From assembly GCA_927362715.1 (NCBI GenBank), contig CAKMIX010000003.1, forward strand, positions 1 through 64,000: 64,000 bases of DNA, in the 5' to 3' direction. Positions 779 to 59,274 of this stretch are shown piece after piece. Positions within the stretch are counted from its first letter, which is position 1. Every line of letters starts with the position of its first letter. The DNA is from an uncultured Clostridia bacterium. GTDB lineage: Bacteria > Bacillota > Clostridia > Oscillospirales > Acutalibacteraceae. Under the pieces are notes generated by a model that was given only the letters and a program-made list of their open reading frames with translations, was not told the DNA's origin and ran no database searches. Both the position numbers and the translations under genes were made by a program.

Positions 779-784
779 TGTCAA
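779..784 (-). promoter_or_regulatory. -35 half promoter at the left end (TTGACA)
   Basis: Perfect sigma-A -35 hexamer reading leftwards out of the ICE. In the integrated state the matching -10 window (756-761) reads GTGGAA, so no promoter is formed. In the circular form it lies 17 bp from the TATAAT at 59269-59274 (7 bp from the right end, 5 bp core, 5 bp from the left end). Confidence 0.75.
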
Positions 785-803
785 GCCCACGACAAAAAAA
801 TTT

Positions 804-962
804 CTATCTTTTTTCAAATTTGAAATGGCGATTTCTCTTAGGGCTTTCCTGTGCTTCGCGCTTTTGCTCGGCATTAAGGAAGGCCCTCAACTTGTGCCTT
901 TCATCCGGTAAAACACATGCAAACACTTGGTTGCCGATTCTACAGTAAAACGCCGCTTTCAT
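804..962 (-). CDS. Small hypothetical protein at the left ICE end (52 aa)
   Basis: An ATG at 962 follows a GGGGAACAGG-type weak ribosome site and opens a 52-codon basic reading frame starting MKAAFYCRIG. It overlaps the last 23 bases of the first serine recombinase gene in another frame. Similarly placed short genes occur beside serine recombinases of other transposons, but I do not recognise this sequence. The AT-rich, lysine/arginine-rich end and the overlap leave it uncertain. Confidence 0.35.
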   Translation of the reverse strand: MKAAFYCRIGNQVFACVLPDERHKLRAFLNAEQKREAQESPKRNRHFKFEKR

Positions 963-2508
963 TGCCTGTTCCCCTGTTTGCTGAAATGTTAAAGACATCC
1001 TGCATTTTATAGACTATCTCGATCCGGTTTCCAGGAAACACATACACCTTGTCAATTAAGGCATCAATCAGTGATTGTGTCAGACTGTCGGCCCCGGAAA
1101 CTTCCCTTATGATTTCCCGCCGCTTGACTTTGGCCTCATAGTCTGCCTGGGCCTGTTTGGTCTGTGCCGCTGCCATTGTGCAGACATTCTTCACTCGGAC
1201 CAGCTCTGCGTCATATCTGGCTTTCTGCTCTTTGTAAGTGCCCAGGGCGATCTCACCAAGGGCAAACTGCTCATAAAGCTGCCGTTTGGCATCCTGCAAA
1301 ACCTGAACTTTCTTCTCATATTCTGCTTGCTGAATAACCTGCAAATCAAGGTTGTCTTTGCCGTCTCCATCAACCCCCAGCACGGTATCTACCTGTGCCC
1401 GGATGATCTGAAATACAGCCGTTTCCAATTCCTCCGCCTTGACCGACATACCATGACAAGCAAAATCCGTGTTTACCTGGGAGTGCCGACAATAGAACTT
1501 CGGATATTGTGTAGTCCGTGACAGTGCATGGTCGCAGCAGCCGCAGAACACTTTCCCGCGTAGAGGGTAATCATGCTGCTTTTTGTTTGGGATAGAAAAG
1601 CGGCGTATGCCGGCTTTTGCCTGCTCGAATAACTCTTTGCTGACAATCGCCGGATGGTGATCCGGTATCTTGTACCATTCGCTTTCATCTTTCAGCCTTA
1701 TGCGGTGCCCGCCGATCTCGGTAACAGCCCGCTTGCCTATGACATAGGTGCCGATATAGCGTTCATCCTCCAACATACGCAGGACGGTTGAACTGCTCCA
1801 TGTTCCATGCGTCCGCGATACATCATAGAAGCTCTGTCCCTTGCTCTTGCGGTATTCTCCAGGTGTGGGGATATTCCGCCGGAACAACTTCCTGGTAATC
1901 TCCGCCGCTGTGGTTCCCTCGGCAGCCCACCGAAAGATCAGGCGGACAATTTCAGCCACATTCTCGTCAATCTCCATACGTCCATCCGCGCTTTTCCGGT
2001 ACCCATAGGGGCAAATCTTGCTCTGGTACTCGCCGCGCTGCATTTTTGCGTATTTGGCGGTTTTCGTCTTGACCGACATATCCCGGCTGTAGCACTCACT
2101 GATAAGATACTTAAAGGCCACATCAATGCCCCCGGTATCTCCCTTGAAATTGATGGTGTCAAAATCATCACTGACAGAGATAAACCGCGTATGGTACAGG
2201 GGAAATACCCGCTCAATGAAATATCCGGTCTCAATGCTGTTACGGCCAAAGCGGGAAAGGTCTTTCACCATGATACAGTCGATCTTTCCGGCCTGAACCA
2301 TTTCCAAAAGCTCCTGAACGGCAGGACGCTCAAAATTTGCGCCGCTGTGCCCGTTGTCTACAAACTCCAAAACCTCGGCCCGGTCCCATTCCGCCAGCGA
2401 CATGGCGTGTTCCCGCAGGATCGCCCGCTGGTTGGGAATACTCATGCTTTCGGTTTTTGTGTCCTCCAAAGAAAGACGGATATAAAATGCGATTACAAAT
2501 TTCTGCAT
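940..2508 (-). CDS. Large serine recombinase 1 (522 aa)
   Basis: Site-specific recombinase of the resolvase/invertase superfamily. The resolvase domain begins YIRLSLED with the likely nucleophile Ser13, followed by NQRAIL and the KDLSRFGRNS helix. A Recombinase domain with the HGTWSSSTVLRMLEDERYIG signature covers about residues 170-290. A zinc ribbon (CGCC...C...C) is near 310-350 and a coiled coil near 400-460. It overlaps the preceding recombinase gene by 16 bp and is nearest the left end, so it is a candidate for the integrase itself. Which of the three proteins catalyses integration or excision cannot be decided from sequence. The start at 2508 fits the family length and the overlapping arrangement. 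Confidence 0.93.
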   Translation of the reverse strand: MQKFVIAFYIRLSLEDTKTESMSIPNQRAILREHAMSLAEWDRAEVLEFVDNGHSGANFERPAVQELLEMVQAGKIDCIMVKDLSRFGRNSIETGYFIERVFPLYHTRFISVSDDFDTINFKGDTGGIDVAFKYLISECYSRDMSVKTKTAKYAKMQRGEYQSKICPYGYRKSADGRMEIDENVAEIVRLIFRWAAEGTTAAEITRKLFRRNIPTPGEYRKSKGQSFYDVSRTHGTWSSSTVLRMLEDERYIGTYVIGKRAVTEIGGHRIRLKDESEWYKIPDHHPAIVSKELFEQAKAGIRRFSIPNKKQHDYPLRGKVFCGCCDHALSRTTQYPKFYCRHSQVNTDFACHGMSVKAEELETAVFQIIRAQVDTVLGVDGDGKDNLDLQVIQQAEYEKKVQVLQDAKRQLYEQFALGEIALGTYKEQKARYDAELVRVKNVCTMAAAQTKQAQADYEAKVKRREIIREVSGADSLTQSLIDALIDKVYVFPGNRIEIVYKMQDVFNISANRGTGNESGVLL

Positions 2509-4151
2509 TGTTCCACCGCCTTTCCATATTCCTCAAATTCACTCTTGAAGCGGAAGCTCACACGGATTTCCTTGTCATGGGTAATCTCGATCCTCTCAAT
2601 CAGCCTGTCAATCAGGGCAGCGGTCAGGGTATGATCTTTTTCCAGGACTTTTGCATCCTGTTCCAGCTCCTTATATTTGGCAAGCTGAGCGTCCATGACG
2701 GCAAGCCCGTTTTCCAAAGTGCTGATCTCGTCAGAGAGTTTGGCAATGGCTGCTTCATAATCCTTTTTCATGGTGAAGTATTCTTCACTGGTAAGCACTT
2801 TCTGCACGAAGTTCTCATAAAGACCACGGACAAAACGGCGGTTCCTATCAATTTCCTGCTTCTTTGCGGAAATGCCCGCTTTCAGATCATCACGCTCTTT
2901 CTTCCGTTTTACCTCTGCCTCTAAGACAAAGGAATAATTACCTAAAGCAACCGTCAATTCCTGCTGCAATATGGCAACAACAGCATCGAGCAGATCCTTT
3001 TCGGTGACGGAAACACCCAGGCACCCGTTCTTGTCTACACGGCTTTTGGTGAGACAATGGAACAGGTAAACATCCGACCCTTTCTTCCGCTTATTGCGCT
3101 GCCGATGGAGGCTGCCGCCACAGTGGGCGCAGAACACTTTCCCCTTAAAGATGTTCGGGGTATAAGGGTCAACCTCATGTGCCTTGCTTTCTTCGCACAC
3201 CTGCCTGCGGTATGCCTTTACTGCCTCAAAAACTTCATGGCTGATAATGGCCTCATGGGTATTGGTGGCGATAATCAGGTTATCCTCGTCTGCCTGTACC
3301 TGCTGGTGGTCCACAATTTTTGTCTTGCCCTGCACCAGATCACCGGTATAAACTTCACTGTCCAGTATCTTTGCAACCGTGCGGGTCTGCCATTTGCCGG
3401 AGCCGACCAGGTTTTCATGGGTGATCTCGCCCGTGGCACGTTTCCGGTGGCTGGGCGTCTGTATGCCCTGTTCGTTCAGCCTGCGGGCAATATCATTCAG
3501 CCCTACATGCTCATAAGCCCACTGGAAAATCTGAAATACAACCTCGGCGGCCTCCGGGTCAATGAGCAGTTTATGGCAGTTCTCCGGGTCTTTCCGGTAG
3601 CCATAAGGGGCCCGTGCGCCAATGTATTCACCGTCTTTCATGGCCTGCCTTGCCTGGGCTTTGATCTTGCGCCCAATGTCCAGCGCATAGGCTTCATTTA
3701 TCATGTTTTTCAGGGGCAGCATAATACCGCCGTGAAGGTTGCTGGCATCCGCTGTGTCAAACTGGTCTGTTAGGGCGATAAAGCGTATCTGATGCGCCCG
3801 GAAATACTGCTCGATATAGTAGCCGGTATCAATGGAATTGCGTCCCAGCCGGGACAAATCCTTTACGATCACACAGTCGATCAGCCCGGCCTCAATATCA
3901 GAAAGCATCTGCTGGAAACCCGGACGGTGGAAATTGGTGCCTGTAGCGCCGTTGTCCACATAGGTGTTGTAAACAACAAATTCCGGCCTTCCTGCCAGAA
4001 AGTTTTCCAGCACCAGCTTTTGGTTCTCAATGGAATGTCCGCGCTTTTTGTTATCCTCCACGGACAGCCGGATATAAAGGGCGGTGCGGATATAGAGGGA
4101 AGTATCGCACACCGGCGTTGCCGTCTGATTCTTTCTGCTCTTTCTTGCCAT
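2493..4151 (-). CDS. Large serine recombinase 2 (552 aa)
   Basis: Same architecture as its neighbours: resolvase domain with YIRLS (likely nucleophile Ser30) and KDLSRLGRNSIDTG, Recombinase domain with GKWQTRTVAKILDSEVYTG, a zinc ribbon CAHCGGSL...C...C, then a long coiled coil before a beta-rich C-terminal tail. The ATG at 4151 directly follows the stop codon of recombinase 3 and the 3' end overlaps recombinase 1, so the three are surely co-transcribed and translationally coupled. The sequence diverges clearly from recombinases 1 and 3, so this is not a recent tandem duplication. Confidence 0.93.
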   Translation of the reverse strand: MARKSRKNQTATPVCDTSLYIRTALYIRLSVEDNKKRGHSIENQKLVLENFLAGRPEFVVYNTYVDNGATGTNFHRPGFQQMLSDIEAGLIDCVIVKDLSRLGRNSIDTGYYIEQYFRAHQIRFIALTDQFDTADASNLHGGIMLPLKNMINEAYALDIGRKIKAQARQAMKDGEYIGARAPYGYRKDPENCHKLLIDPEAAEVVFQIFQWAYEHVGLNDIARRLNEQGIQTPSHRKRATGEITHENLVGSGKWQTRTVAKILDSEVYTGDLVQGKTKIVDHQQVQADEDNLIIATNTHEAIISHEVFEAVKAYRRQVCEESKAHEVDPYTPNIFKGKVFCAHCGGSLHRQRNKRKKGSDVYLFHCLTKSRVDKNGCLGVSVTEKDLLDAVVAILQQELTVALGNYSFVLEAEVKRKKERDDLKAGISAKKQEIDRNRRFVRGLYENFVQKVLTSEEYFTMKKDYEAAIAKLSDEISTLENGLAVMDAQLAKYKELEQDAKVLEKDHTLTAALIDRLIERIEITHDKEIRVSFRFKSEFEEYGKAVEQCRNL

Positions 4152-5789
4152 TTATCCCACCATCCTTTCCTTGAACTGCACAACGGTCTCCGCCGCCTGC
4201 TTTGCGAGCTTTAATGCCTTCTGGTATTCATCCTGATAGTTGAATTCAATATGTAGGTCATTCTTTCCCAAAACTGTAATGCTACGTATAAGCTGTGCCA
4301 CCACCCGGCGGTCCAAATCCTCCAGAGTGGAGAACTTCATAAAATGGGCCATCCAGCGGTTGCGCTCGCTCCGGTTTTCCAGCACATCGGTCAGCTTTTC
4401 GTTCAGCTCGGCAATGGCCTGTTTCAGCAGGTCAATATCCGCATTGTACTTGCGCTTATAAGAAAGAAATTCCTCTTTCGTCAAAATGCCGCTGACAAGG
4501 TTCTCATAGAGCTTTGTCTTGAAGCCCTCAATCTTTGCCATGCGTTTTTCATTGGCGGCGATCTGCCCAGCATATTCCTGGGCCAGCTCCCGGTTGATCC
4601 GTTCCTGGCTGATACCTGAGAGAAGGGCATCCAGGGAGGCCACATTGTCAATATGGCCTTTCAGACTGTCCCGGACACACTCAATCAAATCTTCCTCTTT
4701 GAGCATGACGGAACCATTGCAGCCGCCTTTCTTTCCTGTCGGGCAGTAGTAATAGTGATACTCCCTGCCTTTGTAGTGGTTGGTTTTCCGGGTCATCCGG
4801 CAGCCGCAGCACCCACAGATCAGAATACCGGAAAACAGGTACACCTTATTTTCCTTTGGGGAAGTCCGGGTATCGATCCGCTTGATCCTCTGTACCAGGT
4901 CGAAGTCGTGCCGCTCCACAATCGCTTCATGGGTGTCCTCCACCCGAATCCATTCATCTTCCGGCTTGTTTTCCCGCTCCTTTAATTTGAAGTGGGGTGT
5001 GGTCTGCCGGCCCTGCACCAGCGTACCCGTGTAGGTTTCGTCCTGCAAAATACGGATAATGGTCGTTGCCGACCAGCGACAGTCCTTTTTATCTGTATAT
5101 CCTCCCTTTGCATGGGGCATCCCCTGGCTCCTTTTATATGCCAGCGGGGAGAGAATACCCAGCCGGTTCAGCTCATTTGCAATATGTGCCGCACTGAACC
5201 CCTCCAGGCGTTTCCTGAAAATGTCCTGTACCACATTGGCGGCATACTCGTCAACCTCCAGGCGCTTGTGCTTGTCACCGGTCTTGATGTAGCCATAGAC
5301 AGCGAAAGCCCCGACAAAATCGCCGCTGCGCCGCTTCACATCCAGGGCGCTCCGGGTCTTAATGGAAATATCCCGGCTGTACGCCTCATTCATTATGTTT
5401 TTTACGGAAACGGTCAGATCGTCGCCCGTGTCATTCAGGGTGTCCACATTATCGTTGATCGCAATAAAGCGTACCCCATAGGCAGGAAATACCCGGCGCA
5501 TATAGCGCCCTGTTTCAATGTACTCACGTCCCAGCCGGGACAGGTCCTTGACAATGACACAGTTGGCTTTGCCTTCCTTGATAAGTTCCATCATTTCCTG
5601 AAATGCTGGCCGGTCAAAAAGGACTCCGCTGTAACCGTCGTCAATCTTTTCGTCCACAACCTCAATCTCCGGGTGCTGGACGATATAGTTATCAATCAGT
5701 TTTCTTTGGTTCGCAACACTGTCGCTTTCCGTTGATTTGTCATCCGTATAAGAGAGACGGATATACTTGATCGCTCTGTAAACCTGCAT
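4152..5789 (-). CDS. Large serine recombinase 3 (545 aa)
   Basis: First gene of the recombinase operon. The start at 5789 (MQVYRAIKYIRLS) follows the ribosome site AAAGGAGTG; a longer frame from 5849 has no ribosome site and runs through the promoter region. Ser13 is the likely nucleophile; KDLSRLGREYIETG, a Recombinase domain (CRWSATTIIRILQDETYTG) and a zinc ribbon (CGCCGCRM...C...C) follow, then a coiled coil. Upstream at 5878-5883 is a TATAAT on this strand with a weak -35, and a 21-bp sequence at 5854-5874 repeated inverted near the right end. Confidence 0.93.
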   Translation of the reverse strand: MQVYRAIKYIRLSYTDDKSTESDSVANQRKLIDNYIVQHPEIEVVDEKIDDGYSGVLFDRPAFQEMMELIKEGKANCVIVKDLSRLGREYIETGRYMRRVFPAYGVRFIAINDNVDTLNDTGDDLTVSVKNIMNEAYSRDISIKTRSALDVKRRSGDFVGAFAVYGYIKTGDKHKRLEVDEYAANVVQDIFRKRLEGFSAAHIANELNRLGILSPLAYKRSQGMPHAKGGYTDKKDCRWSATTIIRILQDETYTGTLVQGRQTTPHFKLKERENKPEDEWIRVEDTHEAIVERHDFDLVQRIKRIDTRTSPKENKVYLFSGILICGCCGCRMTRKTNHYKGREYHYYYCPTGKKGGCNGSVMLKEEDLIECVRDSLKGHIDNVASLDALLSGISQERINRELAQEYAGQIAANEKRMAKIEGFKTKLYENLVSGILTKEEFLSYKRKYNADIDLLKQAIAELNEKLTDVLENRSERNRWMAHFMKFSTLEDLDRRVVAQLIRSITVLGKNDLHIEFNYQDEYQKALKLAKQAAETVVQFKERMVG

Positions 5790-5853
5790 ACAAAAACACT
5801 CCTTTCGTCGCGGAAAAATCCCGCAATTCAAGGAGTGCAGTTCGTACATTCGT

Positions 5854-8684: not shown

Positions 8685-9971
8685 TTATGCGGCCTGTATC
8701 TGAGGTCTTCGGATATCTCCCAGCATCTTTGCAGGATCATAATCCACGCCCTTTGTCAGTATTACATAAAAGATCCTGATTACTTTACATGCGACCGCCA
8801 CTACAGACTGCATCTTTTTCAGGGGATTCTCCCTGCGTGTCCGATAATACTCATGGATCGCCTTAAACTCCGGATTCCTCCCAACCAGTGACAACGCCGC
8901 TTCATACAGTACGTATCTCAGGCGTTTCCGCCCTCTGTAGCTGATCCTGCTTTCCCCTTTGTGCTTTCCGGACTGATTTGTCACAATCGCATATCCTGCC
9001 AGCTTCTGCAGCTGTTTGGGATCATCGAAACGCTTAATGTCCCCCACCTCCGCAATAAATCCGCTGACGGTGATCACTCCGACTCCCTTGATTGCCATCA
9101 GTTTATCGATATAGGGAATCTCTTTCAGTTTTTCTCCGATCATCCCGAGCAGTTCTTCCACTCTTGACGCGTATACATCCATATCATTCAGAAGGTTCCG
9201 CAGTTCCATCCTTGCTGCTTCCGGTGCTTCCTTACTGCCAACGCTGTGCTCTGCAGCCGATACCAGGGTCTTTGCCCTCTTCATTCCGGCGCCTCTCAGC
9301 TTTGCGTCTCTCCAGATCCGGTTTACACCCTCGACACCCAATTTTCGGATATCTTCCGGCAGCGGGGCCACCTGTAGCACCATTCTTCCGCTGACCGCTT
9401 TTAAATCCCTGTAAACGTCCTTATATTCAGGGAAGTAGATGGAAAACCATCTGGCGATCCGGTTTTTGGCCCTGGTAAGCTCCTCCTGTGCCTGGAAGCG
9501 CAGGTTTGATAAACTCCTGATCTCCGCATAGATCCCAGTCGGTATGTAGGGATAAGAAAATCTCCCTTCATTCACAAGACCGGCAATGGTTTTTGGATCT
9601 TTACGGTCATTCTTGTTGGGATTGTTGTCATCCAGTTCTTTTGACTTCTTCACATGATGGGGATTCACATGCACTGGTTTCATTCCGCTGTCCTGCAGGA
9701 ATTTCCCAAGCGCAAACCAGTAATGACCAGTCGGCTCCATACCGGGGATTACAACGGATTTTCCATTTTTATCCTGCAATTCCTCTATCCATGCCTTAAA
9801 TGTCTGGAAACCAGCTTCGTTATTGCTGAACTCAAATGGTTTCCTGGTGTATTCGTAATTTCTCCAGTCAAAAGCACGGGCAAAATGGGTTTCACTTCCA
9901 ATATCAATGCCAACAATTAAAGTTTTTTCATTAATGGAAGCAATTTTTGCGTTTTGTGTGTTATACTTCAT
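8685..9971 (-). CDS. IS110-family DEDD transposase (428 aa)
   Basis: RuvC-like N-terminal domain with D in VGIDIGSETH, E in GMEPTGHYW, and DxxD in NDRKDPKTIAGL; the C-terminal Tnp20 domain contains IKGVGVITVSGFIAEVGDI and GESRISYRGRKRLRYVLYEA with the likely catalytic serine region. Full length for the family and apparently intact. The ATG at 9971 follows AGAGAGGTATCTGAA. Enzymes of this family act with a structured RNA from the element's own noncoding end (bridge RNA, established for IS621). Confidence 0.93.
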   Translation of the reverse strand: MKYNTQNAKIASINEKTLIVGIDIGSETHFARAFDWRNYEYTRKPFEFSNNEAGFQTFKAWIEELQDKNGKSVVIPGMEPTGHYWFALGKFLQDSGMKPVHVNPHHVKKSKELDDNNPNKNDRKDPKTIAGLVNEGRFSYPYIPTGIYAEIRSLSNLRFQAQEELTRAKNRIARWFSIYFPEYKDVYRDLKAVSGRMVLQVAPLPEDIRKLGVEGVNRIWRDAKLRGAGMKRAKTLVSAAEHSVGSKEAPEAARMELRNLLNDMDVYASRVEELLGMIGEKLKEIPYIDKLMAIKGVGVITVSGFIAEVGDIKRFDDPKQLQKLAGYAIVTNQSGKHKGESRISYRGRKRLRYVLYEAALSLVGRNPEFKAIHEYYRTRRENPLKKMQSVVAVACKVIRIFYVILTKGVDYDPAKMLGDIRRPQIQAA

Positions 9972-9975
9972 TTCA

Positions 9976-10046
9976 GATACCTCTCTGTTCTATAAGATTT
10001 GTACTAACCTGCCAAGTCAGTAAATCTTATTTTACTCTGAGGTATC
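9976..10046 (-). promoter_or_regulatory. Long hairpin upstream of the IS110 transposase
   Basis: Outer arms GATACCTC/GAGGTATC (9976-9983, 10039-10046) and inner arms ATAAGATTT/AAATCTTAT (9992-10000, 10022-10030) make one interrupted stem just before the start codon. It may be the subterminal inverted repeat of the IS1111 subgroup or a translational control. Confidence 0.55.
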
Positions 10047-10131
10047 CTTTTTTCTCAACCACCTTTCTCGGAATTCCCTATATTTGAATTATACAGGAAG
10101 CTCCTTCAAATTTGTTATTTTATAAGTTCGT

Positions 10132-10166
10132 CGGCTCTGCGTCTGTGCGTCTGGCTCTATGATGAT
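10132..10166. repeat. Direct repeat copy 1 flanking the transglutaminase gene
   Basis: Shares CGGCTCTGCGTCT and TGGCTCTATGATGAT with 10904-10930, but has an 8-bp internal duplication (GTGCGTCT). The pair brackets the gene. Confidence 0.75.
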
Positions 10167-10167
10167 T

Positions 10168-10884: not shown

Positions 10885-10903
10885 TACGCTATATCCTTTC
10901 TAT

Positions 10904-18033: not shown

Positions 18034-19452
18034 CTATTGTCGGGATTTTTGCTTGTCTTTCTGCTGCTCCTGGGAAGCAGGAATGTCCAGCAGATAGTCT
18101 ACATTGGCCTTGATATTGTGAAGCTCCTTCATATCAGACCGGGCCTGCTTATAGGCGGCATAGGCTTTCCGTTTCTGTTCCAGCAGACCGGCGTATTCCT
18201 CCCGGAGCGATTTGACGGAGGGCAGTTTCGTGATTCCTATGCTGTCAAAATATTTCTTCGCCGCCTGGTGTAATAGAATATCCGCCTCATGCTCTGCCCG
18301 GAACTTTTTACTATAACCGGCCTTGCGGTAATCTATATAAACCGCCCGCGTTTTTGCATAGTTGACGATCTGTTTCTGCAATTCTCCGTTAGCGGTCATC
18401 TGCGATTCCAGTTCCTTGATCTGTGCTGACAGTGCATTAAAGCTGACGGTAGCCGCCGCAGCTTTTTCCTGCAAATCTTCATAACTCATATCCCCGTGCT
18501 CTTTCAGGTAGATCACTGCCTGGGAGAGCTGTTTTAAGTTAAACACCTTCGCCCAGCGTTCATAGCCCGGCCCCTTTCCGGCCCGGACCGCTGCCTCAAT
18601 ATCCACCAAAAGCCCAACCTTCGGAGCTGCCTTTGGTGAGAAAGTACGGCGGGGCTTTACCGTGCGGGTGCCTTCGATCCGTTCCCGTATGGCCTGCTCG
18701 GTATAGTCGCCTTTCAGCGTATTGCACCGGGTATAGTTTTTCTGCCCCGGCACCCGGAGCCGGAGGTTCCTGCGTTCCCGGTTGACTTCGATTCCGGCAG
18801 CCTCCAGCTTTTTCAGAAATTCCTCAAAGTCTTTCGGCCTTTCTTCCAGAGCTGCGTTGATTGCCCGGCGTAGCTGCTCCTGAAAAGAGGGCTGTTTTTC
18901 GTTTCCCAGCCATGTGCCATAGTGGTCCCTGCTGGGTTTTGGATTTTCCACGATAGACAGACCGTGCTCCAGACACAGCTTGTCATTCATGCGCCGGATC
19001 GCCCAGGTAGAGCCCCAGAAGTTGCGGAATTTCCGGGTACAGTCAAGGGCAGTGGAATTGATGATGATGTGATCATGAACATGGTGCTTATCCACATGGG
19101 TACACACCACAAAAGCATGATTGCCCTTTGTCAGTTTCAGTGCGAGCTCCCGCCCGATCTGGTTCGCTTCTTCCGGCGTGACCTCGCCGGGCTTGAAGGC
19201 TTGCCGGAGGTGGTAGGCGATCACATCATCTGCGCCCCGGTCCCGTCCGGTCAGATTCAAATACTGCCGCTTGGAAAGAAGGAACTCCGCATCCGCAATC
19301 CGGGTATCACACGCATAGCCATAAATGAATTTTCCAAAATCCGTTTTCTGCGGATTCTCCACATAGTCAATGATGTCCGCAATGGCCGTAGACACATCCC
19401 GTCCTTTTCCCACATGCAGAGGCATTAGTCTTGTGGTCGCTATCAGGATCAC
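18034..19452 (-). CDS. MobP-type relaxase (472 aa)
   Basis: Conjugative relaxase that nicks oriT and pilots the strand. The N-terminal domain has the three-histidine motif HVDKHHVHDHIIINS and an upstream DIIDYVENP tyrosine candidate. The C-terminal third is a charged coiled-coil region. The annotated GTG (19452) is almost on top of AAGGGGG, so initiation at the CTG two codons on, or at the ATG in LMPLHVG, is possible. In related elements mobC is close upstream; here the AbiE pair and a DUF3849 gene lie between. Confidence 0.92.
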   Translation of the reverse strand: MILIATTRLMPLHVGKGRDVSTAIADIIDYVENPQKTDFGKFIYGYACDTRIADAEFLLSKRQYLNLTGRDRGADDVIAYHLRQAFKPGEVTPEEANQIGRELALKLTKGNHAFVVCTHVDKHHVHDHIIINSTALDCTRKFRNFWGSTWAIRRMNDKLCLEHGLSIVENPKPSRDHYGTWLGNEKQPSFQEQLRRAINAALEERPKDFEEFLKKLEAAGIEVNRERRNLRLRVPGQKNYTRCNTLKGDYTEQAIRERIEGTRTVKPRRTFSPKAAPKVGLLVDIEAAVRAGKGPGYERWAKVFNLKQLSQAVIYLKEHGDMSYEDLQEKAAAATVSFNALSAQIKELESQMTANGELQKQIVNYAKTRAVYIDYRKAGYSKKFRAEHEADILLHQAAKKYFDSIGITKLPSVKSLREEYAGLLEQKRKAYAAYKQARSDMKELHNIKANVDYLLDIPASQEQQKDKQKSRQ

Positions 19453-41719: not shown

Positions 41720-41764
41720 ATCCATCACCTCCAGTCTGAATTATCGTTGTTGGTCTGCCGACGC

Positions 41765-44236
41765 TCATGCCCCCGCCACTTCATCCGGCCTTGTGGTAAG
41801 GACCGAATACAAAAGGGTGTCCTTCGGGAAATGATCCACAAAGGGAATAATCACGTTGCCAAAGAACAAAAGGCCCTCGCCGGGGCCGGAATGGGTCACA
41901 TAGGAAAGCTGGTGGGGCGAAATGCCTAACTGCTTCGCCAAAATCTGCCGGTCTCCCTGAGCCTGGTTGAGCATGTAGATAAAATCTGAGTTTTCAAAAA
42001 TGTTCTCGATCTCCCTGGAAGCCAGCAGGTCCTTCACATTCTGAGTTAAACCACTGGGAATACCGCCCCATTTTCTAAACCTTTTCCAAATTTCGACGCT
42101 AAAACTCCCTGTCTGGCCTTTCAGCAGGAGGTGGAATTCGTCGATATAGAACCAGGTCGTCTTATGCTTGGAGCGGTTGGCCGTAACACGGTTCCAGACC
42201 GCGTCCTGCATGATAAGAAGGCCGATCTCTTTCAGGGCCTTTCCCAATGACTTCAACTGGAAGCACAGTACCCGGTGGTGATCCATCTGGATATTGGAAC
42301 GGTGGTTAAACACATTCAATGAACCGTTGACGTAGATTTCCAGCGCCGTGGCAATATTCTGTGCCTCCGGCTCGCTCTGTTTGCGAAGGAGGTCGTACAG
42401 GTCCCCCAGGATCGGCATGTTTTCCGGGCGCGGGTCCTGCAAATAGTCCCGGTACACAAGCCTTGTGCAGCGGTCAATGATCGTCTTTTCAATGGGGGAA
42501 AGCCCCTCCTTGCCGCCGATGATAAGGTCACACAGAGACAGGATAAAATCACTTTTCAGGGTGATCGGGTTTTCATCGTCCGAATAGTCCAGGTTAATGT
42601 CCATCGGATTGATGTAGTTGGTGGAGTTAGGGGAAATGTCAATGACCTGCCCCTGGTCTCCAAACTGTTTTACCAAAGGTCCATACTCATTTTCCGGGTC
42701 TGCTATGATAACGTCGTCCTCCGTCAGAAGAAACACATTGACGATCTCACGCTTGGCAGAGAAAGATTTGCCACTGCCGGGCGTACCCAGGAACAGACCG
42801 TTGGGATTTTTCAGGTTTTTGCGGTTCGCCATAATCAGGTTATTGCTAAGGGCATTGAGACCGTAATACAAAGCTTCGCCCTCCTGGAACAGTTCGCAGG
42901 TGGTAAACGGTACGAAAATAGCCGTGCTGCTGGTGGTAAGCCCGCGCTCGATCTCGATCTGGTTCTGTCCCAGGCATAGAGAGGACATAAGGCCCTGCTC
43001 CTGCTGGAAGTCCAGACGTTTCAGGGCGCAGTTGTATTTCTGCGCCACACCGGAAGCGGCGAAAATATCGTTAAACAGCTTTTGGCGCTTCGGGGCGATA
43101 TTTTCCACCAGCACCGTCACAAGGAACATCCTTTCATTCCTGCTCTGCAAATCCTGCAAGAGATTTTTCGCTTCTTCGCCATAAGTGGCAAGGTCGGTAG
43201 GTATGATGTCCATGTCATAGCCGGAGCGGACCGCTTTTTTCTGTTCCTCAATCGTCATTTTCTGCAAATCGGACATCTTGCGTTTGATGTTCTTGATCGC
43301 CTGGGCCTGGTCGATAGACTGGATATGAAGGTTCACCGTTACGGCGTCGTTCAAGTCCAAAAGGTCGGCAAGCAGCCGGTCCGTCAGCTCCGGGGCCAAA
43401 ATCTGCAAGAAGGACACCGCGCCGGAATGGTCGCCCACCCGGAAGGTTTTACCGTCCTGTGAGAAGGAGAGGCCGGAAGGGGCGATATAGTCCTTTGTGG
43501 AGAGCCCGGTTTTCGGCAAATCCGACCAGTTAAAATGAAATTTCTCCTGGCCGTCCGGGTGGAGCTGGCTGTGCAAAAGCTCCAGACGTTCCAGCCCGTT
43601 CAGGGGCCTTGCCTGCGCGCCCAGGGCTTTGAAGTTCCCCAGCACATCCGTTTCGATCCGTTCCAGACGCATTTTCGCCGTGCGAAGGTCCTCCGCCTCA
43701 ATCCCAAACGTGATATATTTCCGCTTGGTAAGACCGTTGTTGCCCTTTTGGAGCTGGTTCTTCAGCATATCCGCGTACTCCCTGCGGATTCCGTCGTACT
43801 CGTCGCCACGGGTAGGAATATCTATGCTCCGAACAAAGTCCTGCATATTGGCCCGCTGGTTGATGAAAGTGAGCTGCACATGGATCGAGGCGTCAAAGTA
43901 ATTGAGAAAATCGCAGTAGCCCTCAAAAATCTGCGCTTTGTCGTCCGCCTGCGCGAGCTGGTAGTTAATATCAAAGAACTGTACCGTCTTGGTGTAAAAA
44001 TTGCCGCTCACACGGCAGATACCGTCCCGGTACATTTCCTTATAGGGAATACTCTGCTGGACCGTCTGCGGGGCGTCCGCTTTCAGCCCGGAAAAAAAGC
44101 CGGGCCTTTTCTTCGGCCCGGCAGGAGAGGCAGTTTTACTTCCTGCCTTTCTTGCTTCGGCGCGGGTCTTTTTTGCCTGCTTTACGTTTCTTTGCAGACG
44201 TTTTTCCTGCGCCTCCTGCTGTTTGGTTTTTGGCAA
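41765..44236 (-). CDS. virB4: VirB4-type conjugation ATPase (823 aa)
   Basis: T4SS energising ATPase. Walker A GLFLGTPGSGKSFSAKRE near residue 480, Walker B TTWFYIDEFHLLLKG near 685, followed by SGLTQNVKDLL. The N-terminal half (KDGICR-like RDGICRVSGNFYTKTVQFFDINY) matches VirB4/TcpF-family proteins. TTG start 44236 after GGAGGTATCACAGA; its first 101 bases overlap the prgI gene in another frame. Confidence 0.95.
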   Translation of the reverse strand: MPKTKQQEAQEKRLQRNVKQAKKTRAEARKAGSKTASPAGPKKRPGFFSGLKADAPQTVQQSIPYKEMYRDGICRVSGNFYTKTVQFFDINYQLAQADDKAQIFEGYCDFLNYFDASIHVQLTFINQRANMQDFVRSIDIPTRGDEYDGIRREYADMLKNQLQKGNNGLTKRKYITFGIEAEDLRTAKMRLERIETDVLGNFKALGAQARPLNGLERLELLHSQLHPDGQEKFHFNWSDLPKTGLSTKDYIAPSGLSFSQDGKTFRVGDHSGAVSFLQILAPELTDRLLADLLDLNDAVTVNLHIQSIDQAQAIKNIKRKMSDLQKMTIEEQKKAVRSGYDMDIIPTDLATYGEEAKNLLQDLQSRNERMFLVTVLVENIAPKRQKLFNDIFAASGVAQKYNCALKRLDFQQEQGLMSSLCLGQNQIEIERGLTTSSTAIFVPFTTCELFQEGEALYYGLNALSNNLIMANRKNLKNPNGLFLGTPGSGKSFSAKREIVNVFLLTEDDVIIADPENEYGPLVKQFGDQGQVIDISPNSTNYINPMDINLDYSDDENPITLKSDFILSLCDLIIGGKEGLSPIEKTIIDRCTRLVYRDYLQDPRPENMPILGDLYDLLRKQSEPEAQNIATALEIYVNGSLNVFNHRSNIQMDHHRVLCFQLKSLGKALKEIGLLIMQDAVWNRVTANRSKHKTTWFYIDEFHLLLKGQTGSFSVEIWKRFRKWGGIPSGLTQNVKDLLASREIENIFENSDFIYMLNQAQGDRQILAKQLGISPHQLSYVTHSGPGEGLLFFGNVIIPFVDHFPKDTLLYSVLTTRPDEVAGA

Positions 44237-45637: not shown

Positions 45638-46501
45638 CTAATGCGAGTTAAAAATGCTCTTTGATAACGAGCCTGTCTTAAAGAGGGCGAAGGCCAGCAG
45701 GACGGTATATCCCGCCGTGCCCCAGATCGCACCGTGAATATCGCCGGACGAGGGGATCGACTGGACCAGCACCGCGTAGATCGCGACGCATACCAGGATC
45801 AAGAACCCCTGGAATCCCAGGGCGAACAGGGAACGAAGATAGTTCGTCCCCATCTGTCCCCATTCACGGTTTGCCATTGTGGAAAACGGTATGGGTGCCA
45901 GACTGACCGTGAGATATATTTCAATCATGCGGCCATAGACAATGACAAAGATTACAATAGACAGTACCCACATGCACAGGTTGATGATGTTAGTTTCCAG
46001 CCACAGGCCGATCAGCTCCCACATCCCCATTGCTTCAAGCTGCGTTTCCAGGTCAGCCAGCGCCGCCGTGACATCCAGATTTCCGTTTATCACGCCGGCG
46101 CTCTGCGATACCACATTTTGGGCGACATCAAACACCGCCATGACAATCGTAAAGCAGTTGGTAAGCAGGTAGGTGGCTACAAAGGTCTTGAAGATCCACT
46201 TGAAGATGTTGAACGTATCAAAATCGTGCATGTTATTCTTTTCCAAAATCATCTGAATCAGCTCATATACCAGCACAAAGGTCAGAATAATGCCCGCAAT
46301 GGGAATGACGACGGTTTCAGAAAGATTCTGGATCATACTGAACACGCCGCCATTCCAGCCCTGCGGGGTCTGTCCGACCTGCCCGGCCACATCCGCGACC
46401 TGGCTGTTTACCGATTCAAAAATACTGGTGTACTGCCCGGTGATTGCTTCGATCAGGCCCTCTTTGATCCAGTCTGTTATCCAGTCAAACAGACTGCCCA
46501 T
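45638..46501 (-). CDS. TrbL/VirB6-like channel protein (287 aa)
   Basis: Polytopic: helices around residues 60-85 (VVIPIAGIILTFVLVYELIQMIL), 105-130, 165-195, 210-240 and 250-275, with an amphipathic start MGSLFDWITDWIKEGLIEAITG. Typical of the TrbL/VirB6 inner-membrane channel protein of Gram-positive ICEs. Six bases after the Maff2 gene. Confidence 0.88.
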   Translation of the reverse strand: MGSLFDWITDWIKEGLIEAITGQYTSIFESVNSQVADVAGQVGQTPQGWNGGVFSMIQNLSETVVIPIAGIILTFVLVYELIQMILEKNNMHDFDTFNIFKWIFKTFVATYLLTNCFTIVMAVFDVAQNVVSQSAGVINGNLDVTAALADLETQLEAMGMWELIGLWLETNIINLCMWVLSIVIFVIVYGRMIEIYLTVSLAPIPFSTMANREWGQMGTNYLRSLFALGFQGFLILVCVAIYAVLVQSIPSSGDIHGAIWGTAGYTVLLAFALFKTGSLSKSIFNSH

Positions 46502-46968: not shown

Positions 46969-48816
46969 TTACGCGGTTGTCTGTGCTGCCAGTTCTTCCG
47001 GCGTGATCTCATAGTTGGGGTACAGCTCTCCGGGACGTACAGGCAGCCTTGTAGACAGGTATTTCTCTATGTCAAAGGCATTCTTTTCGTCAAAATCCGA
47101 AAGGTATTTGTAATTCGGGTGTTTGGTAATATCGTACTTCCGGGACAGGAAGGGACGTACGCCTCTGATCTGCAGGAGGCATTTGCCGCCGTCCATCACC
47201 GCAAGCTCGTCAACGGACATTAAATCTTTGCCCAGCTTTTGGAAATTCTGTCCGTGGGATTCCTGGGTGCCCTTCGTGACGCTGGTGTTATACATATCAA
47301 TGGTTTCTTTCCCCAGCAGGGAATTCCAGCTTTTCAAGGTGGTTTCCTCCTTACCGCCCAGGAAAAGAGAAGAATCACAGTTGCCTATAATCGTGTCCAT
47401 GTTGTCCTTATAAAGCGCTTTGAGCTGGCTCTGTGCCTGCAATACCAGGCAGGCGGATATTTCTCTTGAACGGATCGTTGCCATCAGCTTTTCCAGGTTC
47501 GGGATTTGGCCGATATTGGCCGCCTCGTCGATCAGGCACCGCACATGGACCGGGAGCCTGCCCCCAAATTTATCATCCGCCCGCTCACAGAGCAGGTTGA
47601 ATAGCTGGGTATAAGCCATACTGACAAGGAAATTAAAGGTCGCATCCGTATCACTGATGATAAAGAACAGTGCCGTTTTTCTGTCGCCCACCAAATCAAG
47701 CTCCAGCTCGTCATACATGGTAATCTCCCGGACTTCCTTAATGTCAAACGGGGCAAGTCTGGCGCCGCAGCTAATTAAGATCGACTTAGCCGTCTTGCCG
47801 GCAGCCAGCTTGTATTTTTTATACTGCCGGAGGGCGAAGTGGTCCGGGTCTTTCTGTTCCAGAGCATCAAAGAGCAGGTCAACCGCATTTTTGAAAGTCT
47901 CGTCATCCTCCCGGACTTCCATAGCGTTTATCATTTCCACCAGCGTAGAAAAGTTCTGCTCATTGGAAGGAGCTTCATAATAGATGTAGCCGATCAGAGC
48001 CGTATAGAGCAGCGTTTCGGCCTTGACCCAAAAATCGTCCCCGGATTTTCCTTCGCCTTTCGTGTTGGCGATCAGCACCGTTACCAGTTTGAGAATGTCC
48101 TTCTCATTGTGGATATACGCAAAAGGGTTATAGTGCATACTCTTTGAGAAATTGATGGTGTTGAATACCTTGATTTTATACGGCTCATACACGATCTTCC
48201 CATTCTTGCCCCGGACCGGCTTTCCGTCCTTATCCAGCTTCGGTGTGCCCCGGCTTAACAGCTTTCCAACCTCAATCAAGACCGTGCCTTTCGGATCGGT
48301 AACGACATAAGAGCTGTGCATCTGCATGAGATTGGGCTTGATAAAAAACCTCGTTTTGCCGGAGCCGGAACCGCCGACCACCAGCACATTTTTATTCCGG
48401 GCGTTGGCCGGGTTCTTCGGCCTGCCGGACATCATAAGCCCCTCGCTCTGCGTCAGAATGATGTTATTTTCCGGCTTTGGGTCCATAAATGGGGCAATAT
48501 CCGTTTTGCTGCCCCAGCGGGCAGAACCGTATTCCACGTTTTTGCGGTACTTTTTGGCGTCCTTTCCTTTGAGATACACCGCCAGCCGCACAATGACCGC
48601 ACCGCCAAGACCCACCAGCCAGTCCATCGCCGCACCGGGCCACATGCTCTGAAAGGCCAAAGTGAAACCTTCACTTAGCCCCAGCAGTTTTTGCGAAGCA
48701 TCCGCTCCGGGAGCCAGCCGCACCGCCTGGCCCAGCTTTGCGAATACAAAAAGGAACAGAAGGTAAGGCAGGTGGAGGATCACCTGCTTTTTCAGGGTGT
48801 CGGTATCTATCTTCAA
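46969..48816 (-). CDS. virD4: VirD4/TraG-type coupling protein (615 aa)
   Basis: Two N-terminal membrane helices, Walker A VVGGSGSGKTRFFIKPNLMQ, then YVVTDPKGTVLIEVGKLL, Walker B VRCLIDEAANIGQIPNLEKLMATIRSREIS. Links the relaxase-DNA substrate (and protein substrates) to the secretion channel. Overlaps the pcfB stop by 4 bp, the usual PcfB-PcfC pairing. Confidence 0.96.
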   Translation of the reverse strand: MKIDTDTLKKQVILHLPYLLFLFVFAKLGQAVRLAPGADASQKLLGLSEGFTLAFQSMWPGAAMDWLVGLGGAVIVRLAVYLKGKDAKKYRKNVEYGSARWGSKTDIAPFMDPKPENNIILTQSEGLMMSGRPKNPANARNKNVLVVGGSGSGKTRFFIKPNLMQMHSSYVVTDPKGTVLIEVGKLLSRGTPKLDKDGKPVRGKNGKIVYEPYKIKVFNTINFSKSMHYNPFAYIHNEKDILKLVTVLIANTKGEGKSGDDFWVKAETLLYTALIGYIYYEAPSNEQNFSTLVEMINAMEVREDDETFKNAVDLLFDALEQKDPDHFALRQYKKYKLAAGKTAKSILISCGARLAPFDIKEVREITMYDELELDLVGDRKTALFFIISDTDATFNFLVSMAYTQLFNLLCERADDKFGGRLPVHVRCLIDEAANIGQIPNLEKLMATIRSREISACLVLQAQSQLKALYKDNMDTIIGNCDSSLFLGGKEETTLKSWNSLLGKETIDMYNTSVTKGTQESHGQNFQKLGKDLMSVDELAVMDGGKCLLQIRGVRPFLSRKYDITKHPNYKYLSDFDEKNAFDIEKYLSTRLPVRPGELYPNYEITPEELAAQTTA

Positions 48817-56540: not shown

Positions 56541-57521
56541 TTAAATTGAAATAGCCGCCTGTTTCTGGCGGCATTGTAGTTGGCGGTCCTTGATCTGTTC
56601 CCTGGTATATAGCAGCTTTTCGTTATAGTCCTTTCCGACGCGGGGTGGGTTGACGCCTACCCGTATGTGCTTAAAACGCTGATCCTTATGGAGCATGGCT
56701 TTGATTTTCCGGGCATTGGTAAGGCCGCCAAAATCATTGTCCATGTAAAGCGTGACCCGCTTTATTTCCGGGTGGCGTTCCAGAAATGCCGTCAGCGCCA
56801 CATGGGAAGTGCCTCCCAGGGATAAGCGGTAGCCATCCCATTTCCAGCCTTCAAGCTCCTGCAGCGTGGCATGGGAAAGGGCGTCAATGGGAGCCTCAAA
56901 AACAGCCACATGACGGCTGCCCGGATTCCGCGGCGGGTAGCAGAAGCTAAATTCCTTGTCGCTGCCGTAAACATCCTTTCTGAGATTGCCGGTGATACTG
57001 CGCATACAGGCAAACTTCGCTTTCCCCGCGTTGTCCTTACCGACAAACACACAGACCGGTTCTCCATGATACCGGGCTTCATAGAAAAGCCCGTTCCGAA
57101 AGCACCGGCTAATCACGTCCGAGCTGATTCCGCGCCGCTGCATATACGAGACCGCGGCGGTAGCGCACCGTCTGGCCCAGGGCAGCGTAAACGGTTTCTT
57201 TTCCGGCTCTTTCCGCGCCTGCTTTGCTGCCGCGCTTTGGTAAGCCGGCACCTGCCGGATTTCTCCGCCTGCCAGTGTTTGCACCGCATCCACCAGACCA
57301 TAGCCCCGAATCTGGATCAGGTAATCCAGGGCGTTGATACTCCGGCCCCGGCTGTTCCAGTACCAGTACCGTTTCCCGGTCACATAGACCAGGCTGTCAT
57401 GCTCCTTGTGGCGGTAATTGGGGCCGTCCCGTTTGAGTACGCCGGGCTCATGGGATTGCAGATAGGCGAACAGGTCTGCCTCCCGTGCCGCCTGAATCTG
57501 CTCTTTGGTTACGCCGGGCAT
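56541..57521 (-). CDS. DUF3991/TOPRIM primase-like protein (326 aa)
   Basis: N-terminal DUF3991 zinc-less helical part (EADLFAYLQSHEPGVLKRDGPNYRHKEHDSLVYVTGKRYWYWNSRGRSINALDYLI) and C-terminal TOPRIM domain (HVAVFEAPIDALSHATL with the Glu; VTLYMDNDFGGLTNARK with DxD). Primes synthesis on the transferred strand or in rolling-circle replication. A 12-codon leader frame (ATG after GGAAGGAGGCG) ends at this start, indicating translational coupling. Confidence 0.93.
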   Translation of the reverse strand: MPGVTKEQIQAAREADLFAYLQSHEPGVLKRDGPNYRHKEHDSLVYVTGKRYWYWNSRGRSINALDYLIQIRGYGLVDAVQTLAGGEIRQVPAYQSAAAKQARKEPEKKPFTLPWARRCATAAVSYMQRRGISSDVISRCFRNGLFYEARYHGEPVCVFVGKDNAGKAKFACMRSITGNLRKDVYGSDKEFSFCYPPRNPGSRHVAVFEAPIDALSHATLQELEGWKWDGYRLSLGGTSHVALTAFLERHPEIKRVTLYMDNDFGGLTNARKIKAMLHKDQRFKHIRVGVNPPRVGKDYNEKLLYTREQIKDRQLQCRQKQAAISI

Positions 57522-57575: not shown

Positions 57576-57599
57576 TGAAAAAAGACGCCCGAAAGCGCC
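57576..57599 (-). terminator. Intrinsic terminator after the replication-protein gene
   Basis: Hairpin GGCGC/GCGTC (one wobble) followed by TTTTTTC on the minus strand, between the replication-protein and primase genes. Confidence 0.55.
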
Positions 57600-58471
57600 T
57601 AACAGCCGTACAGGTCATGGTTGACCTCCGCACGGTAATAGCTATCCATCGTTGCCGGGGCGTTATACAGCGCCGCCAGCAGATAAGCCTTGATGTTGTT
57701 GACTTTCGTAACATTCTTGTCGATACAGTCAAAAACATACTCCAAGTGGCCGGAATTGATCTTTAAGAACCGGCTCCTGACAACCTCCCGTGGGAAGTCG
57801 TCTCCGGCAATGCGGATATATGGCCGTCTTGACAGCACCGTTTCCAGCATAAGCTCCACAGTCTCGTCCATGCGTTCCTGTCCGTACCGTGGAACCAGGA
57901 AGTCATACTCAACATTCTCTTTGATAATTTCACGGTATGCCTCTGCCATATCCATCCGATCAATCCCATCCTGACAGCCTGCCGTTTCCGGCTCTGCCGG
58001 ATAGATTGATTGATGTGTCCTTGATATATCCGTTTTTGATTTTTTAGTCCTTTGTGGATTAGTATTTAATTGTGCGGGATTTTCCTGTTCAGGTTCCGCC
58101 TGTTCAGGTTTTGCCTGTCTTGGATTTACCTGTCTTGGATTTTCCCGTTTAGGTGAAACACCTTGTTTTACGCCGGTTACAGGCTTTTCGTGGATCGTGT
58201 ACTCAATATCGCCGAGCTGTCCGTTTTCATAGCGGAGGCGCTGCCTGGTGAGATACCCGTGCCGTTCCAGCTCCTTCAGGGCGGTAGTAATGGAATCCAC
58301 GCCATCCCTGCAAATATGGGCCAGCCCCTTTGTGGTATAATCCCAATCTTCCGGCAGCGACAGCATAAGGGAAAGAAGCCCCTTCGCCTTTAAGGACAGT
58401 TCCGTATTGCGCAGGTGGTGATTGCTCATAACCGTAAAGTCCTTTGTTTTCTCTACACGGAATACAGCCAT
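57599..58471 (-). CDS. Replication initiator-like HTH protein, DUF6017 type (290 aa)
   Basis: N-terminal winged helix of RepA/DnaD type: RNTELSLKAKGLLSLMLSLPEDWDYTTKGLAHICRDGVDSITTALKELERHGYLTRQRLR. A variable middle has repeats of NPRQ/EPEQ type, and the C-terminus MAEAYREIIKENVEYDFLV...IRIAGDDFPREVVRSRFLKINSGHLEYVFDCIDKNVTKV fits DUF6017. Probably starts replication of the circular ICE. Confidence 0.9.
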   Translation of the reverse strand: MAVFRVEKTKDFTVMSNHHLRNTELSLKAKGLLSLMLSLPEDWDYTTKGLAHICRDGVDSITTALKELERHGYLTRQRLRYENGQLGDIEYTIHEKPVTGVKQGVSPKRENPRQVNPRQAKPEQAEPEQENPAQLNTNPQRTKKSKTDISRTHQSIYPAEPETAGCQDGIDRMDMAEAYREIIKENVEYDFLVPRYGQERMDETVELMLETVLSRRPYIRIAGDDFPREVVRSRFLKINSGHLEYVFDCIDKNVTKVNNIKAYLLAALYNAPATMDSYYRAEVNHDLYGC

Positions 58472-58500: not shown

Positions 58501-59022
58501 TTACAAAGCGCGGTCCCTGCGGTCATAATGGAGATGGCCGCCTGAGACCTTCGCATGGTTTTTCAGTTTGACTTCGCCCCGTTCCTGGCTCTCTAAGAAT
58601 TTCTGATGGCCGGCCTCCGTAAGAAACAGGCGCATCTTATCGCCCTTGTCCCCAACAGGGGAATCATAGGACAGCACATCAAAGACGATCATGTGCTTTA
58701 CCTCTGGGTCAAATCGTTCCAGCCCCATGATGTCATGCCCCTTAAGTTTCTCCGCGCCAGACTGCTGCCTGGCCTCGGCGATCCTTTCCCCAATGGTCCG
58801 GGGCGGGTGGGGCAGCCGGTAATTTTCCTGAATATCCCGCACCAAATCCATGCACTCACGATCCGACAGGACACGCACCTTTGCCATAAGGCTTTCCGCT
58901 GTCTCCCGCAGCTCGGAATTGTTTGAGTAGCGCACGGTCATGTAAAGCTCATTCAGGACCTTTGCCTGGCAATCTCCTTCGACCTGAAAGAGCATCTTTT
59001 TTTCCATTTCATTCAGTTCCAT
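58501..59022 (-). CDS. First gene of the transfer operon, unknown (173 aa)
   Basis: ATG 59022 (MELNEMEKKMLFQVEGDCQAKVLNELYMTVRYSNNSELRETAESLMAKVRVL) follows AAAGGAGCCACAC. Helical N-terminal half; the C-terminal third (YDSPVGDKGDKMRLFLTEAGHQKFLESQERGEVKLKNHAKVSGGHLHYDRR) is basic. No domain recognised; recurrent as the first gene in this ICE type. It follows a leader with an intrinsic terminator, so it and the genes after it may be controlled by attenuation. Confidence 0.75.
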   Translation of the reverse strand: MELNEMEKKMLFQVEGDCQAKVLNELYMTVRYSNNSELRETAESLMAKVRVLSDRECMDLVRDIQENYRLPHPPRTIGERIAEARQQSGAEKLKGHDIMGLERFDPEVKHMIVFDVLSYDSPVGDKGDKMRLFLTEAGHQKFLESQERGEVKLKNHAKVSGGHLHYDRRDRAL

Positions 59023-59053
59023 GTGTGGCTCCTTTCTTCTAAAAATCTGCATG

Positions 59054-59146
59054 AAAAAAGGGCGTCCACCTAATAAGATGAAACGCCCACGGCAATCAGC
59101 GGTCAGGCAAAATGCCGGACCGCTGGCACTATTCAGTTTTGTCGTT
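59054..59146 (-). promoter_or_regulatory. Attenuator-like leader of the transfer operon
   Basis: Reading on the minus strand: the ACAAAACTGAATA motif (59131-59143) just after an AAAGGAGG site, then hairpin CAGCGGTC/GACCGCTG (59097-59104, 59118-59125), then a terminator GGGCGT/ACGCCC (59060-59065, 59083-59088) with TTTTTT, all before the first gene. Confidence 0.65.
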
Positions 59147-59192
59147 AATGTAACAGCCTCCTTTTTTCGTCAATTTTCTCGCCATATTTCAA

Positions 59193-59213
59193 CTTGGGAA
59201 AAGGAATTGAATA
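59193..59213. repeat. 21-bp inverted copy of the recombinase-operon site
   Basis: Exact reverse complement of 5854-5874. It lies in the transfer-operon leader about 55-75 bases downstream of the circle-junction promoter. Confidence 0.7.
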
Positions 59214-59218
59214 GACGG

Positions 59219-59266
59219 CGACAAACGCTGAAACCCCTTGAAAATCAAGGCTTTTTCCGTTTGTCG
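59219..59266. promoter_or_regulatory. Hairpin adjoining the right attachment site
   Basis: CGACAAAC/GTTTGTCG outer arms (59219-59226, 59259-59266) enclose CCTTG/CAAGG. Its outer arm overlaps the TTTGTCGT arm of the attachment site, so it may serve recombinase binding, RNA structure or both. Confidence 0.6.
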
Positions 59267-59268
59267 TT

Positions 59269-59274
59269 ATTATA
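59269..59274 (-). promoter_or_regulatory. -10 half promoter at the right end (TATAAT)
   Basis: Perfect sigma-A -10 reading leftwards into the transfer operon. In the integrated state the -35 window (59292-59297) reads GAGGCG. In the circular form TTGACA from 779-784 comes to 17 bp upstream. Confidence 0.78.

Follow-up and report, generated by a model that had tools for sequence, protein, structure and literature searches.

A consensus promoter split between the two ends of a clostridial integrative and conjugative element is predicted to assemble on excision and to face the transfer genes

In this study, we analyzed a 64,000-nucleotide (nt) stretch of contig CAKMIX010000003.1 from an uncultured Clostridia bacterium, hereafter the window, whose left edge is the contig start and which contains an integrative and conjugative element (ICE) inserted in a tyrosine-recombinase gene. 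Our results support a model in which a consensus sigma-A promoter is divided between the ends of the element, one hexamer on each, and becomes whole only on joining. We consider it very probable, judging from sequence, that the excised circle would transcribe the replication and transfer operon from this promoter. A preliminary description of the window had proposed that a minus-strand TTGACA at 779–784 and a minus-strand TATAAT at 59269–59274 are split in this way and come to lie 17 bp apart on joining, and the in silico join bears this out. When the ends are joined at the common GGCAC (769–773 and 59282–59286), the minus strand reads TTGACA-TACGGG-TG-CCATTACGG-TATAAT, a 12/12 match to the two hexamers with a 17-bp spacer. 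The shared core turned out to be narrower than that description supposed: GGCAC is indeed present at both ends of the element, but relatives have only CA in common, at the center of the attachment (att) site dyad, and this CA is likely the crossover dinucleotide. The −35 and −10 hexamers sit on opposite ends and acquire the correct spacing only in the joint, where the promoter, running from its −35 in the left end to its −10 in the right end, is directed into the operon that begins with the DUF5720 gene, with a predicted transcription start at about 59262 on the minus strand.

Among 400,000 random joins within the window sequence, with the −35 taken from one side and the −10 from the other, none gave a 12/12 match and 23 gave 11/12. 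The 64-kb window contains no intact 12/12 site with 17 bp. It has five sites with up to two mismatches at this spacing (shuffle mean 3.6; five or more in 29 of 100 shuffles), and the best of these, an 11/12 match with a TG at 59964–59992 on the minus strand, lies outside the element. In the integrated element, both halves lie next to DNA of the interrupted gene, where neither finds a good partner. At spacings of 16–18 bp, the best −35 partner at the right end is GAGGCG (2/6 to TTGACA) and the best −10 partner at the left end is TGGAAG (3/6 to TATAAT); at exactly 17 bp the left partner reads GTGGAA, so that the integrated partners given in the preliminary description, GTGGAA and GAGGCG, stand.

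The hexamers are conserved among elements of the same att family. A scan of genome contigs for the right end, with the −10 hexamer left free, recovered at least 119 loci with 120 sites, two of which we judged to be chance matches in Vibrio and Planctomycetia contigs without the remaining end sequence; among the matches listed, 117 of 118 right ends carried TATAAT (ATTATA on the plus strand). For the left end, 45 of the loci, covering 44 genomes, were picked and searched with the −35 free and up to three mismatches allowed elsewhere. This gave 47 rows. TTGACA (TGTCAA on the plus strand) was present in all 30 rows with zero or one mismatch and in 4 of the 17 with two or three, and the other 13 look like chance because a reversed control of the pattern also yielded 27 matches at up to three mismatches. 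An overlapping regular-expression search of the loci returned 35 left-end sites (32 distinct), all with TTGACA. Because the patterns fix the flanks and the spacing, these counts show that the hexamers are kept and do not bear independently on the spacing. Close to the hexamers, positions +4, +17, and −16 are variable across relatives (43 right-end and 31 left-end sequences, of which a few are probably chance). Integrated relatives also lack a good partner: right ends reached at most 4/6 to TTGACA at spacings of 16–18 bp in all 128 sites among the matches listed (TAT[AT][AT]T sites only, not deduplicated), and left ends at most 4/6 to TATAAT downstream of the −35 in all 34 distinct ends. Most of the flanking sequence encodes a conserved protein motif, and this may prevent it from providing the absent hexamer.

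At the level of sequence, the split promoter is real, and it is not confined to one att system. With the external recombinase of the window as query, a protein search covered 197 genomes and gave a match in 166. Distant homologs with other arms and targets also have TTGACA at the likely element end, as in L211 (45% identity) and in L215, L217, L218, and L221 (32–33%). In L211 (genome G442), the left end with TTGACA lies beside a target that, read by eye, is tRNA-like and not a protein gene. Across 57 loci from two recombinase searches (60 less 3 duplicates), TTGACA occurred within 350 nt downstream of the recombinase stop codon in 22, compared with a mean of 3.9 and a next-best count of 16 for permutations of its letters; its reverse complement occurred in 9.

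Three further pairs of ends were completed, their right ends found through the interrupted gene with no −10 required. In G518, where both ends lie on one contig and the right end was located by homology of the interrupted gene, the target is a serine-recombinase gene split at SKD|LSR and the joint reads TTGACA-CAAGAA-GA-TTGTTGTGC-GATAAT. In G031 and G631, the target is spoVT, and the joints read TTGACA-CGTTCA-GA-CTAATGCGT-TATAAT (ends on contigs C75 and C68, right end via the spoVT start) and TTGACA-CAAGCA-GA-TGCTTGTGT-TATAAT (contigs C28 and C17), respectively; the G631 recombinase is 46% identical to that of G031 over residues 201–514. The names of these targets rest on a reading of the translations. 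The window and all three further pairs share one arrangement of −35, 6 bp, dinucleotide, 9 bp, and −10 (6 + 2 + 9 = 17). Right ends of the spoVT type were also sought in 391 genomes with no hexamer imposed at the −10, which yielded 26 rows from 24 genomes. All six right ends with MKATGIVRRI|GA, which include G031 and G631, carry TATAAT, as do two with the same core and another upstream peptide (L315 and L316); the remaining 18 rows are without TATAAT and look like chance. Comparison with the ends of related ICEs, suggested as a check in the preliminary description, finds the hexamers kept with few exceptions and the spacing kept as 17 bp in three further att pairs. A related ICE with transfer genes and no split promoter, named there as a refuting case, did not appear among the three completed pairs; transfer genes were checked in G518 only, where they too follow the joint promoter.

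The hexamers lie inside attP, and it could be argued that they are merely part of the site bound by the serine recombinase, with an incidental likeness to a promoter. The core and outer arms of attP form an inverted repeat that is conserved as well, and parts of the −35 obey the dyad (offsets 9 and 12 in the window, 8–10 and 12 in G631, and the inner part of the hexamer in both G518 and G631). However, the −35 spans offsets 8–13 on one side of the dyad and the −10 spans 11–16 on the other, and the attP of the window, symmetric at offsets 2, 3, 6, 7, 9, 12, 18–25, and 29, is asymmetric at 8, 10, 11, and 13–17. Symmetry is lost at offsets 11, 13, and 14 in each of the four systems and at most positions of the window's −10, and a homodimeric recombinase alone would not require asymmetric hexamer positions. 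Moreover, both hexamers recur in the same geometry while the arms, the core dinucleotide, the target, and most of the recombinase sequence differ. Recombinase binding alone is inadequate because the promoter geometry recurs with distant recombinases (~32–33% identical), other targets, and a GA core, and we regard this explanation as very unlikely.

We propose that the serine recombinases would excise the element by crossover at CA, forming the joint described above, and that RNA polymerase would start near 59262 and proceed leftward through a leader of ~175 nt. Downstream on the same strand come, in order, the genes for DUF5720, HTH_36/DUF6017, the primase-like protein, type IV secretion, and the relaxase, presumably in a single transcript. 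Of 200 shuffles, 199 fold less well than the predicted leader, and comparison of relatives points to a conserved terminator ~175 nt into it, which a general terminator scan (loops of 3–8 only) did not list. The distance from the crossover to the first-gene open reading frame (ORF) was 231–236 nt in 36 of 44 tblastn matches to DUF5720 (duplicates included, among the matches listed), and DUF5720 lies further in in the other 8; 48 of the 92 listed right ends with >300 nt inside gave no tblastn match, two of these being chance sites. A hairpin with a T-rich run starts 186–201 nt from the crossover in 25 of 42 cluster representatives and at 212–213 nt in 3 more, and was not found in 14. In an alignment of 21 of the 25 hairpin-bearing leaders, the terminator helix is 99.4% paired, a figure that is biased because these leaders were chosen for having the hairpin. 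In none of 500 shuffles did the covariation score or the count of helix cells changed on both sides (6) come out as high; the 2 doubly changed pairs were matched or exceeded in 82 shuffles and the 9 pair types in 361.

The terminator was overlooked in the preliminary description, which held that excision switches on the right-end operon. The orientation, the split, and the conservation of the promoter agree with that claim, but given the conserved leader terminator, promoter assembly alone may not be enough, and antitermination or leaky read-through is predicted. The terminator would block chromosomal transcription, in the manner of T1 in Tn916, and the circle's own transcript would need one of these routes past it. 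A host tRNA-Ser(cga) gene (59623–59711), with the 11/12 promoter-like site noted above upstream of it, points at the right end of the element, although a terminator-like site of its own (59512–59548) lies between them. An Rfam scan of the window at gathering score found the tRNA only, with no match in the leader; in this region, three subthreshold matches look like chance. RNAalifold pairs the leader 5′ stretch GGAAAAAG with the terminator U-run, mostly through A-U pairs. The leader (59054–59262, minus strand) also contains two near-invariant blocks, CCTTTTCCAA and TGTTnCATTAACGACAAA. The attP arm ACGACAAA recurs in the latter, and there may be an additional binding site or an RNA element here. 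A small leader peptide seen by eye (GGAGG followed by NTG TTW CAT TAA) was dropped, as neither its start codon nor its spacing is kept.

A functional joint promoter might instead mainly make a short leader RNA ending at the terminator, the transfer operon then depending on other promoters or on transcripts of the recombinase genes that run on across the joint. This would fit the conserved terminator in the leader, the G518 start site directly preceding a hairpin and T-run, and transcription that crosses the joint from orf7 in Tn916 (passages of PMC11658703). We consider it rather unlikely, since the window has no other 12/12 promoter with 17 bp and since in some relatives (L031, L034, L171, L183, and L184, by eye) a hairpin resembling a terminator directly precedes the −35, a structure that would insulate the joint promoter and stop read-through from the recombinase genes. 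The G518 structure (L237:13500–13620), a long hairpin and T-run directly after the predicted joint start site, is possibly a circle-specific small RNA. A role of the joint promoter in recombinase expression and re-integration instead of transfer, as in Tn4451, is highly improbable. The three recombinase genes do lie on the same strand, and a transcript running around the circle would reach them last, but this places them >50 kb downstream of the joint promoter and behind the transfer genes.

Taken together, the split promoter is most likely an excision-gated switch for the transfer genes. Several observations weigh against this reading. No joined attP was found in 59 genomes, seven of which gave 3-mismatch sites reading as attR, or in viral contigs, so that no sign of a circle was seen there. 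The leader terminator could stop most transcripts, and promoters internal to the operon may also act. The own-family counts are not independent of common descent; one right end (L165) has TATATT (AATATA on the plus strand), and of the 44 right-end genomes, 22 gave no TGTCAA left end, which broken contigs or diverged ends could explain. Further exceptions are a −35 that reads TTGCCA in L204 and the −10 of G518 (GATAAT). The G031 and G631 joins link different contigs through the interrupted gene alone. Three more pairs were not completed, the right end of G470 not being found in 140 kb and those of G616 and G746 being sought and not found. Finally, hexamers made of A/T runs reach counts of up to 32 in the same 57 loci, and 7 of the 22 TTGACA loci belong to the window's own att family, with some others perhaps due to chance.

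Most insertions of the family interrupt tyrosine-recombinase genes, of many different kinds, at the second His codon of the HxxRH motif. The 118 listed right-end sites, three of whose flanks were too short, left 96 distinct flanks, of which 86 fit the loose motif H[STCGAN]x[ASVGIT][STAVGH] in the split-codon frame and 79 fit a stricter motif adding a later G/R-H/W and Y. Three flanks that fail the motif (L064, L074, and L106) are still recognizable as tyrosine-recombinase targets, and seven (L059, L084, L085, L094, L130, L131, and L144) look like other targets. When ten diverse flanks were compared with Pfam, PF00589 was found at E<0.001 in seven, three of these above the curated cut-off, and the left flanks inspected by eye read HxLRH or HxFRH. 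Insertion would leave the resident element without a working integrase until the ICE is excised.

We lean, with a little more than even confidence, toward a broader interpretation in which triplet-serine-recombinase ICEs in general have the split promoter as a built-in sensor of excision. A module of constant layout (−35, 6 bp, dinucleotide, 9 bp, −10) would be held in attP across at least three integration specificities and coupled to a terminated leader, with only the circle expressing transfer genes. The window's family would in addition aim its att site at the HxxRH codons of rivals' tyrosine recombinases, so that one crossover would both free the rival integrase gene and arm the element's own transfer.

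The element has the gene content of such an ICE (Table 1): a triplet of adjacent large serine recombinases at the left end, a type IV secretion system, a coupling protein, and a relaxase are all present, and every element gene recognized by Pfam is on the minus strand, the search having covered minus-strand ORFs. DUF5720 has 1229 relatives at E≤0.001, and its start codon is more likely at 59022, given a GGAG stretch preceding that position. Further minus-strand regions were noted. A cargo region (8685–17039) encodes an IS110-type transposase, a transglutaminase-like protein, an ABC transporter with FtsX permease, and an MFS transporter; an AbiEii-like nucleotidyltransferase and a weak AbiEi-like antitoxin occur as a pair at 19507–21331; and 32628–37550 encodes a 1640-residue protein with a thioester domain, nine SpaA stretches, and a C-terminal sortase-like domain, an unusual fusion.

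Table 1. Features of the element and its integration site in the window
Feature	Positions	Strand	Basis
Interrupted tyrosine-recombinase gene, 5′ part, ends ...HDLRH	33..772	+	PF00589 on ORF 33–911
Likely crossover dinucleotide CA, left copy (attL)	771..772		Relatives' junctions, dyad center; crossover inferred
−35 half TTGACA, left end (plus strand TGTCAA)	779..784	−	Sequence; joined ends
attP dyad outer arm, left end, ACGACAAA	789..796		Dyad offsets 18–25
Large serine recombinase, external, adjoins left end	940..2508	−	Pfam; homologs by protein search
Large serine recombinase, middle of three	2493..4151	−	Pfam
Large serine recombinase, internal of three	4152..5849	−	Pfam
MobA/VirD2-type relaxase	18034..19452	−	PF03432
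M23 + NlpC/P60 cell-wall hydrolase	39032..41728	−	Pfam
VirB4/TraG-like ATPase	41765..44236	−	PF19044
TrbL/VirB6-like protein	45638..46501	−	PF19478
VirD4-type coupling protein	46969..48816	−	PF02534
DUF3991/Toprim_2, primase-like	56541..57521	−	Pfam; function inferred
HTH_36/DUF6017 protein, replication-initiator-like	57599..58471	−	Pfam; function inferred
DUF5720, first gene of operon	58501..59052	−	PF18987; ORF from 59052
Leader RNA of junction promoter, predicted	59045..59262	−	Fold z-score −3.1; alignment A1 of 21 leaders
Intrinsic terminator in leader, before first gene; GGGCGT...ACGCCC then T6	59054..59088	−	−16.0 kcal/mol; comparison
Terminator-like hairpin just inside right end	59236..59250	+	Terminator scan
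attP dyad outer arm, right end, TTTGTCGT	59260..59267		Dyad offsets 18–25
−10 half TATAAT, right end (plus strand ATTATA)	59269..59274	−	Sequence; joined ends
Likely crossover dinucleotide CA, right copy (attR)	59284..59285		Relatives' junctions, dyad center; crossover inferred
Interrupted tyrosine-recombinase gene, 3′ part	59284..59505	+	Reads HSCASLLLANGV... up to stop

If the model is correct, it offers a simple physical reason why a class of conjugative elements of gut bacteria would hold transfer genes off until excision: no regulator would be needed, as recombination itself would build the promoter. The 6-2-9 geometry is a checkable signature for locating element ends and att sites from sequence. 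Insertion at the active-site codons of tyrosine recombinases suggests a recombinase that reads DNA kept constant by the protein-level constraint on its rivals.

Promoters formed at a circular joint have a precedent. Lyras and Rood are said to have described, in 2000, a promoter formed at the circular joint of Tn4451/Tn4453 that serves tnpX in a mobilizable element. The element studied here resembles these in combining large serine recombinases with a promoter formed at the joint, but the promoter serves tnpX there, whereas in the present element, which is conjugative, it faces the replication and transfer operon. Direct drive of a recombinase, a feature of the Tn4451 type, was not found; the first genes downstream are DUF5720, HTH_36/DUF6017, and primase-like. 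Tn916, whose integrase is of the tyrosine type, offers a second comparison. According to passages of PMC11658703, its transfer genes are expressed once the element has circularized, T1 at the operon entry blocks chromosomal transcription and insulates the integrated element, and the canT RNA lets the circle's transcript pass. Here, the terminator is known from sequence comparison, and Rfam identified no canT-like RNA in the window leader. The pre-existing promoter Porf7 reads across the joint in Tn916, as those passages describe it, whereas in the window the promoter itself is split.

Streptococcal triplet-serine-integrase ICEs also have three adjacent large serine recombinases at one end, 2–8 bp repeats, and gene-disrupting insertion, including into the traG of another ICE; the targets named in the source passages are mutT, traG, and hsdM, in contrast to the tyrosine-recombinase genes of the window's family, and these passages mention no joint promoter (PMC4701971). 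In ICEKp1 and ICEclc, end joining likewise changes which promoter drives a gene, with state-dependent int promoters, but in the passages available the promoter lies in one end and is brought next to int, and is not described as split (PMC13023037). We found no description, in the parts of the open-licence PubMed Central literature covered, of a split promoter for transfer genes or of serine recombinases that target tyrosine-recombinase genes, which is not proof of absence. In summary, a joint promoter as such has precedent in Tn4451; the one described here is oriented toward transfer genes and is seen in more than one att system.

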